A stretch of DNA of 64,000 nt from an uncultured Euryhalocaulis sp. (GTDB lineage Bacteria > Pseudomonadota > Alphaproteobacteria > Caulobacterales > Maricaulaceae), in assembly GCA_913055605.1 (NCBI GenBank), contig CAJXKJ010000009.1, positions 1-64,000 of the forward strand. Reading direction: 5' to 3'. The first letter of the stretch is position 1; every line of letters begins with the position of its first letter. The translations under genes and the position numbers were made by a program. Below the pieces are notes generated by a model. It was given only the letters and a program-made list of their open reading frames with translations, made no database searches and had not been told where the DNA came from. Positions 50,255-52,485 of this stretch are shown piece by piece.

Positions 50255-50926
50255 TCAGCGCGCGCGGCGCTGGGCCGGGCCGTGGCGCAGCCGCGCCAGC
50301 ACCGCCAGCGGATCGGGCAGGTCCGCGGTCGCCTTGCGGACTTTCGCCTTGGCCTTTTCGAACTGCATCACGTTTTCGATCCGCCGCTGCAGGAAGGCGC
50401 GCGTGACGGCCAGATCGGCGTCCCGGTCGTCCAGAAAGACCGGGAAGGTCGCGGCGTAGACGCCCGACAGGATGGTGCGCTTCGAATAGAAATTGAAATC
50501 GGTGGAGCTGTCGCCCACCGCCCGCCACATCGCGTCGGCCGTGCGCCACAGGATGCGGGCGTTGGTCCCCGCCGCGTCGGGCAACATCAACCGCCCGGCG
50601 GCGCGGCGCGCGGCCTCCCGGTGCGGGCGCGCGGGGGTAAGGCGGGCCATCACCGCCGCCTCGATCCGCTGGCGCACTTTCAGGGCGGGCAAATCCATGG
50701 CGGACAGCGCCGCCGCCATCGCCCGGTCGGCCTGCAGATTCCAGAAATCGATCGCGTCCACCGGCCCGCGCGGGAAATACAGCGCGTCCGCCCCCTCCGG
50801 CAGGCCGGCCTCCGTCGCGGCGCGGGCCAGCACCGCCTGGCTCCACCCGTCGAAGGCCGCATGCGGCAGCGCGGCCTCCAGAATGGCGGCGCGATTGGCC
50901 TCGAAACGGGGAAATTCCTGCGTCAT
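50255..50926 (-). CDS. COQ9 family protein (ubiquinone biosynthesis)
   Basis: RAAILEAALPHAAFDGWSQAVLARAATEAGLP; LMLPDAAGTNARILWRTADAMWRAVGDSSTDFNFYSKRTILSGVYAAT. Confidence 0.92.
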   Translation of the reverse strand: MTQEFPRFEANRAAILEAALPHAAFDGWSQAVLARAATEAGLPEGADALYFPRGPVDAIDFWNLQADRAMAAALSAMDLPALKVRQRIEAAVMARLTPARPHREAARRAAGRLMLPDAAGTNARILWRTADAMWRAVGDSSTDFNFYSKRTILSGVYAATFPVFLDDRDADLAVTRAFLQRRIENVMQFEKAKAKVRKATADLPDPLAVLARLRHGPAQRRAR

Positions 50927-50988: not shown

Positions 50989-52077
50989 GTGTTCTGCGAG
51001 GTCCCAATGGACAGCGACATCAATCAGATATTCGAAGAAATAATATCGACCATCTTCTCCAAAGCCGGATTCAACGTGAAGCGCATGCTGGACGAATCAT
51101 TGAATAGTCCAGATTTAGTTGTTTACACAGCTACCGGAAAAGCGGTTGTCGATACAAAAGTATATAGATCACTTGTCGCACCAGCTGGACAATTACTTAA
51201 ATCTGCCATGATAATAGAAAATATTCGAGAAGAAACCGGGGCAGATTTTGGTATTATAGCGGTTGCAAATGACATATCCAGCCCATTAAGGCAAGCGATA
51301 TCTCGTAGATTTCCAAAAATAAAGATATATGATGAAAATATAATATTAGAATTACTTTCGAATGATTTTGACGAATATAGCAAATACATCCAGCTATTGC
51401 ATGACGCTCGACCATTTTCCAAAGCGATTCAAATTAGCAAAAGTAGTGGTGAAAAAAGTTTCGATATTCAAGACATTAAGGATGACTTAAAGAGCGCGCC
51501 GAATACTGCGTGGACATCGGATGAAAAATCCTCGCCGCATACACCCTTTGGGGGCCAATTATGCAATACGATCAAATCTATACCGCCCGGGCAAAAAACT
51601 TTCGCGAAATTCGAACGCGATGTTGGCAGCGCCCTAAAGTATATATTTGATTCAGACCTAACCTCTTGGACATATCAAGAAAAAACAGATACTGGAATTT
51701 CGAGATTTGATTACATTTGCAGAATTTCGTCAGATCATGATTTTTGGAAAACTATAATTCGCTCGTTTGGAACTAGATATATAATATTTGAGATGAAAAA
51801 TCATTCAGGTGAATACGGGCAAGGAGAGATTTATACAACAGAGAAATACCTATTTCGCACCGCGCTTCGGTCTGTTGCATTTATTATTTCACCAAATGGG
51901 GGTGATTCAAATGCACGGGCTGCAGCTCAGGGAGCACTAAGGGAAAACGGAAAGCTAATAATAGATTTAAATATTCAACGCATTTGCGAAATGCTGACGC
52001 TAAAGGATAGCGGCGACGATCACAATTCCGTTTTGGTGACCATGCTCGATGAATTACTTATGCGGATCGAGCGATAG
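50989..52077 (+). CDS. Putative restriction-endonuclease-like protein with two PD-(D/E)XK-like motifs
   Basis: N-terminal PDLVVYTATGKAVVDTKVY; C-terminal RFDYICRI...RYIIFEMKNHSGEYGQGE. Strongly AT-rich against the surroundings. Alternative ATG at 51007. Confidence 0.75.
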   Translation: MFCEVPMDSDINQIFEEIISTIFSKAGFNVKRMLDESLNSPDLVVYTATGKAVVDTKVYRSLVAPAGQLLKSAMIIENIREETGADFGIIAVANDISSPLRQAISRRFPKIKIYDENIILELLSNDFDEYSKYIQLLHDARPFSKAIQISKSSGEKSFDIQDIKDDLKSAPNTAWTSDEKSSPHTPFGGQLCNTIKSIPPGQKTFAKFERDVGSALKYIFDSDLTSWTYQEKTDTGISRFDYICRISSDHDFWKTIIRSFGTRYIIFEMKNHSGEYGQGEIYTTEKYLFRTALRSVAFIISPNGGDSNARAAAQGALRENGKLIIDLNIQRICEMLTLKDSGDDHNSVLVTMLDELLMRIER

Positions 52078-52260
52078 GGAGACGTGGTGGAGTGGATTAA
52101 AATCCAGCCTTTTGCCGGGTCGCTGCGAACAGCACCCCGTTTGGTCAGCGATGCGCTGGACAGGCGAAATCCCCTCTGTTATCAGCCCCGCCAACGATTT
52201 CGCGTTTTCGCGGAAGCGGCCGAACGGCCTTTTCGCGGACCCAGACAGGAGGCGAGAGCC

Positions 52261-52485
52261 CTGGTTCAGATTTATGTGCGCGACAACAATGTCGAACAGG
52301 CATTGAAAGCGCTGAAAAAGAAGATGCAGCGTGAAGGCACGTTCCGCGAAATGAAGCGGCGCTCCTTCTATGAGAAGCCGTCCGAAAAGCGCGCCCGCCA
52401 GAAAGCGGAAGCGGTGCGCCGGGCCCGCAAGCTGGCGCGCAAGCGCGCCCAGCGCGAAGGCCTGATCGCGGCCAAGCCGCGCTAG
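52261..52485 (+). CDS. rpsU: 30S ribosomal protein S21 (apparent CTG start)
   Basis: (L)[50 protein letters not shown]; perfect AGGAGG at 52247-52252, 8 nt before the CTG. Confidence 0.93.

Follow-up and report, generated by a model that had tools for sequence, protein, structure and literature searches.

A lone gene between COQ9 and rpsU in Euryhalocaulis encodes tandem Mrr-like and FokI-like nuclease domains and is a candidate single-gene defence system

Within a 64 kb window of a Euryhalocaulis contig, which is the whole stretch of DNA analysed here, we examined a gene that encodes two different PD-(D/E)XK nuclease domains in one protein. On balance, we consider it a horizontally acquired single-gene nuclease system, whose role is most likely defence against phages or other incoming DNA. 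The family to which it belongs is best called a tandem Mrr-like plus FokI-like nuclease family and has so far been named only as an uncharacterised PHROG. PD-(D/E)XK nucleases are widely used in bacterial immunity, and were present in 13 of the 31 additional systems validated by the DefensePredictor study (PMC13092281). For two different, catalytically intact PD-(D/E)XK domains in one methyltransferase-free gene, no mechanism is described in the literature searched. The features of the locus are as follows.

50258 to 50926, minus strand: COQ9-like gene, left neighbour, outside the insert (COQ9 found in 31/31 genomes searched)
51007 to 52077, plus strand: coding sequence of the two-nuclease protein (356 aa; 96 homologues align over the full length; phrog_31260)
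51007 to 51420, plus strand: Mrr_cat/Hjc-like PD-(D/E)XK domain, aa 1-138 (Pfam Mrr_cat E 0.005, sub-threshold; AF2 pLDDT mostly above 85)
51034 to 51036, plus strand: helix glutamate E10 of the N-domain (E in 75/96 homologues)
51112 to 51159, plus strand: N-domain catalytic residues D36 (51112-51114; conserved in 95/96), D49 (51151-51153; E or D in 96/96) and K51 (51157-51159; 94/96)
51421 to 51537, plus strand: variable linker modelled at low confidence, aa 139-177 (residues 140-180 mostly at pLDDT 50-70)
51538 to 52074, plus strand: conserved FokI-like PD-(D/E)XK domain, aa 178-356 (AF2 pLDDT 92.9, pTM 0.89; FokI fold match)
51613 to 51798, plus strand: C-domain catalytic residues E203 (51613-51615), D235 (51709-51711), E262 (51790-51792; E or D) and K264 (51796-51798), each in 96/96
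52157 to 52184, plus strand: rpsU promoter-like TGGACA-16-TTATCA (spotted by eye; a consensus scan did not return it)
52261 to 52485, plus strand: rpsU (bS21), right neighbour, outside the insert (CTG start codon; Shine-Dalgarno sequence AGGAGG at 52247-52252)

The insert and its flanks

The open reading frame 50989-52077 was confirmed on the plus strand. The ATG at 51007, with GAGG just upstream, is the likelier start and gives a protein of 356 aa; the alternative GTG at 50989 would add six residues. An earlier sequence-only reading of this DNA had claimed that the gene differs sharply in composition from both neighbours, and this is borne out by its GC3 of 35.7%, compared with 90.6% for COQ9 and 78.4% for rpsU. 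Its overall GC content is 39.5% in a window of 68.6% GC, and it forms the sole AT-rich stretch of the 64 kb (1-kb windows down to z = -6.9).

The same reading had taken the gene for a recent insertion and proposed a comparison of the locus. When COQ9 loci were fetched from 29 relatives, rpsU was divergently adjacent in 22 of them, with a start-to-start distance of 120-311 bp (175 bp in genus-mate G001) versus 1335 bp in the window. A full-length homologue of the two-nuclease protein was not found in 60 relatives, where the sole match was to the C-domain within a different protein (genome G028). Given this result and the short gap in 22 relatives, the gene is not ancestral at the locus. The insertion thus stands, while its recency has no bound other than the divergence from a rather remote genus-mate, whose COQ9 is 61% identical.

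The rpsU flank, including the Shine-Dalgarno sequence and a 10-base identity at the promoter-like TGGACA, and the COQ9 end are common to the window and G001, which bounds the insert by about 50930 and 52155. The 10-base identity (CTGGACAGGC) with the intergenic region of G001 also supports the promoter-like call; a putative rpsU promoter would survive intact to the right of the insert. A search for target-site duplications and flanking repeats gave nothing above the chance level (shared words reach 6 nt at most; shuffled mean 5.8), so that nothing points to a transposon or integron as the mechanism. The 64 kb window holds no tRNA, and an Rfam search near the locus returned no RNA family.

The right neighbour is itself unusual at its start codon. 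In 23 genomes of the order, counting that of the window, the codon preceding VQI of rpsU is ATC in 16, CTG in 5, TTG in 2 and ATG in none; a Shine-Dalgarno sequence lies upstream, and the V codon is no start codon itself. ATG is the start in just 3 of another 28 genomes from the class. A literature search found no paper on a non-AUG rpsU start. By analogy, the conserved AUC recalls the AUU of infC and suggests that bS21 may be under start-codon-based control.

Two nuclease domains in one protein

PD-(D/E)XK-like motifs had been proposed for both halves of the protein from sequence alone, and we located both at the places given: D36...D49-x-K51 (PDLVVYTATGKAVVDTK) in the N-domain and D235...E262-x-K264 (FDYICRI...IIFEMKN) in the C-domain. 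Conservation was counted in a full-length alignment of 96 homologues. As the catalytic residues are kept in 94 to 96 of them, and both triads are intact in 94, the two motifs are not due to chance. In a whole-protein AF2 model built from 69 sequences (mean pLDDT 89), both halves have an alpha-beta-beta-beta-alpha-beta core that carries its catalytic residues on the strands where they are expected, and a fold search with the whole model returned MspJI, Hjc and AspBHI. Profile alignment of the N- against the C-terminal half placed E10/E203, D36/D235 and D49xK51/E262xK264 in register (E 1e-5, probability 82%), indicating that the two domains are distant homologues of each other and both of the PD-(D/E)XK type. 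Searches of PDB sequences with phmmer and hmmsearch gave no reliable match.

For the N-domain, the window protein scores 17.4 bits against Mrr_cat (Pfam cut-off 21), and 61 of 69 homologues match this family at E<=0.1 (best E 7.6e-13). Together with the triad and the order of the core elements, the matches of the homologues assign the N-domain to the PD-(D/E)XK nucleases. Mrr_N was matched neither by the window protein nor among the families shown for the 69 homologues, the catalytic domain itself being N-terminal. Likewise, none of the SRA, YTH, PUA-like or Mrr_N reader domains occurs among the Pfam matches shown.

The C-terminal half has no match in Pfam. Its own AF2 model, built from 78 C-domain sequences, has FokI as the closest solved fold (E 8.6e-4, TMq 0.58) and also matches Nt.BspD6I; these Foldseek matches are significant but modest, and the output did not print the matched residues. 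The E...D...(D/E)xK signature present in all 96 homologues, the two fold matches and the profile alignment with the N-domain identify the C-domain as a PD-(D/E)XK nuclease as well. A fold check of each half thus found this fold in both, and not in one half only. Judged by pairwise identity, the N-domain evolves far faster than the C-domain (mean identity 23.6% and 45.2%, respectively; C above N in 99.9% of 4,560 pairs).

The FokI-like C-domain was also seen in other settings. It lies C-terminal to a P-loop NTPase in Klebsiella/Citrobacter phage-plasmids (L011, 4615-6681; L141), where the proteins are annotated as 'ATP-binding protein' or HypX, and it ends a PDC-M36A-like protein (L002, 655-2019) in a family relative of the window genome. 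Apparent three-part proteins combine a helicase-like N-terminus with Mrr-like and FokI-like domains (L109, 5017-6510; L138, 5350-6921), and their frames look genuine. Other atypical starts, among them the long frame of L135 and the response-regulator start of L108, were put down to mechanical ORF extension and not counted as fusions. A Sinorhizobium meliloti plasmid copy annotated as the C-domain only (L005, 5400-6519) appears to be split, since the tblastn match runs upstream through an N-domain-like frame with an internal stop.

Distribution and neighbourhoods of the family

Over almost its entire length (residues 5-355 of 356; profile positions 12-364 of 365), the window protein matches phrog_31260, a PHROG listed as of unknown function (E 6.8e-63); prophage members match it with E values up to 2e-98. 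No study of phrog_31260 was found in the literature searched. NCBIfam gave no match for the window protein, and a weak one, to the YraN family, for 1 of 69 members. An alignment-based scan of GTDB genomes revealed 75 homologous loci, versus zero for a single-sequence scan of the same contigs. A further 22 loci lie in viral contigs, and additional copies on plasmids, which are mostly conjugative. Members are found in six phyla (Pseudomonadota, Bacteroidota, Bacillota, Acidobacteriota, Cyanobacteriota and Verrucomicrobiota). Phyla are mixed on short branches in a tree of the C-domain, with a cyanobacterial copy on a short branch inside the gammaproteobacteria, which points to transfer between phyla. 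The window copy groups with those of an alphaproteobacterial MAG (L042) and a Bradyrhizobium MAG (L043). The distribution is patchy: among 385 genomes of the class, very few carry a copy. A prophage member used as query found no match in 50,697 phage records, and a single DNA query found no family member in 5,426 complete E. coli genomes, so that screens based on E. coli probably missed it. A widespread, compact family without obvious accessory genes raises the questions of which domain senses, which one cuts and how self-DNA is spared.

The sequence-only reading had described the gene as solitary and without a methyltransferase partner, and both descriptions hold beyond the window. No methyltransferase adjoins the gene here and none recurs in about 108 homologous loci. 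Nor does any conserved operon partner recur across these loci, apart from phage structural genes and recombinases; since no neighbour family recurs, the gene is solitary. Type I restriction-modification genes next to three members (L048, L088 and L119) belong to their own systems and do not form a common partner. In the window, the gene stands by itself between housekeeping genes, outside any defence island, and the copy of L042 was likewise read by eye as lying alone between apparent housekeeping genes.

Seven of the 22 viral loci (L117, L118, L121, L126, L127, L129 and L130) carry the gene directly 5' of a baseplate gene V-like gene and 3' of tail-completion genes. P2-like phages have three moron sites, and these seven prophage members occupy one of them, the orf30 (S-V) position of P2 (PMC6823313, PMC3091744). 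The other cargo loci of P2 are known defence hotspots (PMC9122126, PMC9519451). The orf30 site itself has received little attention as a defence hotspot next to tin/old and Z/fun.

Defence genes were also found near other copies. The matches of ten chromosomal neighbours, a biased choice made by size, include GajB, type I restriction-modification proteins, AriA, OLD, HamB and a Mads protein, while 3 of 10 other neighbours taken across the locus list matched PADLOC. At 1e-10, 129 nearest neighbours matched 348 PADLOC models versus 2 matched by 40 ORFs of the window; given redundant models and a small control drawn from another genome, this enrichment is correlative and no more than indicative. 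Two of the 40 window ORFs match PADLOC PDC-M72A (best 1.3e-50) and Ankyrin (best 5.4e-31). Plasmid loci had GASH, TIR, a 7-deazaguanine-type gene and a helicase with an ATP-dependent endonuclease nearby, and IetAS-like genes come after some of the rhizobial copies. In a Rhizobiales isolate (L104, 1538-6531), a family member lies directly 3' of a gene for the Hachiman helicase HamB, and of a probable HamA, on the same strand.

Candidate function and relation to known systems

Among named systems, the PADLOC candidate PDC-M36A matches the C-domain of 58 of 69 homologues, including residues 187-282 of the window protein (E 5.8e-6). The match is limited to positions 287-383 of the 457 in the profile. 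PDC-M36A has another N-terminal half (about 290 aa, as in L002), where our family has the Mrr-like nuclease, and it is listed as one component of a candidate system with several genes, whereas the window gene is alone and does not qualify as PDC-M36. A literature search on PDC-M36 found nothing. Mrr itself, a type IV enzyme (Mrr_cat, PF04471), shares a related catalytic core with the N-domain and likewise acts without a methyltransferase. Mrr carries an N-terminal DNA-binding domain. No such domain was found in the window protein, whose core lies at the N-terminus, ahead of a second nuclease domain.

The cleavage domain of the type IIS enzyme FokI is the closest solved fold to the C-domain, in which D...E-x-K is intact, but identity is only about 10% and the window protein lacks sequence-recognition domains; the adjacent cognate methyltransferase that marks type II/IIS restriction-modification is missing both in the window and across about 108 loci. 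Shedu SduA (SduA_C, PF14082) is also a single-gene PD-(D/E)XK defence protein, with a C-terminal nuclease behind other N-terminal parts. Homology of the C-domain to SduA_C was not detected (hhalign probability 0.6%; three SduA sequences compared), and PF14082 had no match in the window protein or its genome; one of 69 homologues matches PADLOC SduA at 1.8e-5. The CARF nucleases Can2 and Cdn1 resemble the fold weakly, but no CARF domain is among the Pfam matches shown for the family.

A single-gene defence nuclease remains our preferred reading, the neighbours and the prophage cargo site lending it support from context only. In such a system, the fast-evolving Mrr/Hjc-like N-domain would face the target; it would recognise, and probably incise, some feature of the invading DNA, for which modified bases, ends, and branched or replicating DNA are candidates. 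The conserved FokI-like C-domain would follow with the second cut or a non-specific one, probably once two protein molecules have paired on the DNA, and double-strand breaks would result. In the absence of a methyltransferase, self-protection would depend on which DNA is targeted (marked by a modification or by its structure, as for type IV enzymes) or on activation triggered by infection. More tentatively, the family may represent a stand-alone, phylum-crossing class of immune nucleases, in which a diversifying Mrr-like domain nicks the target, dimerisation of the conserved FokI-like domain gates the cut of the second strand, discrimination is methyltransferase-free, and the FokI-like domain is portable, as the NTPase, helicase-plus-Mrr and PDC-M36 fusions might indicate.

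Other functions were weighed against the same evidence. The N-domain could read methylated or hypermodified bases and cleave, assisted by the C-domain, which would make the protein a type IV, Mrr-like modification-dependent restriction enzyme. The Mrr_cat-like N-domain, the missing methyltransferase partner and the modification-dependent enzymes MspJI and AspBHI among the whole-protein fold matches are consistent with this, and a variable N-domain would fit changing phage modifications; however, the TM-scores to MspJI and AspBHI are low and may reflect only the shared nuclease fold, and no SRA, YTH, PUA-like or Mrr_N reader is among the Pfam matches shown, so we consider it somewhat unlikely. 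An abortive-infection effector, kept inactive until an infection cue unleashes non-specific degradation of host and phage DNA, is suggested by the resemblance of the C-domain to the non-specific FokI cleavage domain. The recurrence of the C-domain in fusion with varied N-terminal modules (a P-loop NTPase in Klebsiella phage-plasmids, a PDC-M36A-like protein) would further suit a portable effector. We judge this unlikely, as the family has no conserved sensor or antitoxin partner and the N-domain keeps a catalytic site that a pure sensor would not need.

Cargo of phages and plasmids may also serve DNA metabolism or competition between elements, by recombination or junction cleavage, instead of host-protective immunity. 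Hjc-like fold matches and the copies in prophages and plasmids agree with such a nuclease, but the prophage copies occupy an accessory moron site and not a replication or recombination module, chromosomal copies commonly adjoin defence genes, and copies are patchy and very few in the 385 genomes of the class, which makes this explanation improbable. That a lone gene of foreign composition with a sub-threshold family match is simply a decaying or inert insertion is very improbable, given its full-length open frame with a plausible Shine-Dalgarno sequence and start, the integrity of every catalytic residue, the confident structural model and the full-length PHROG match.
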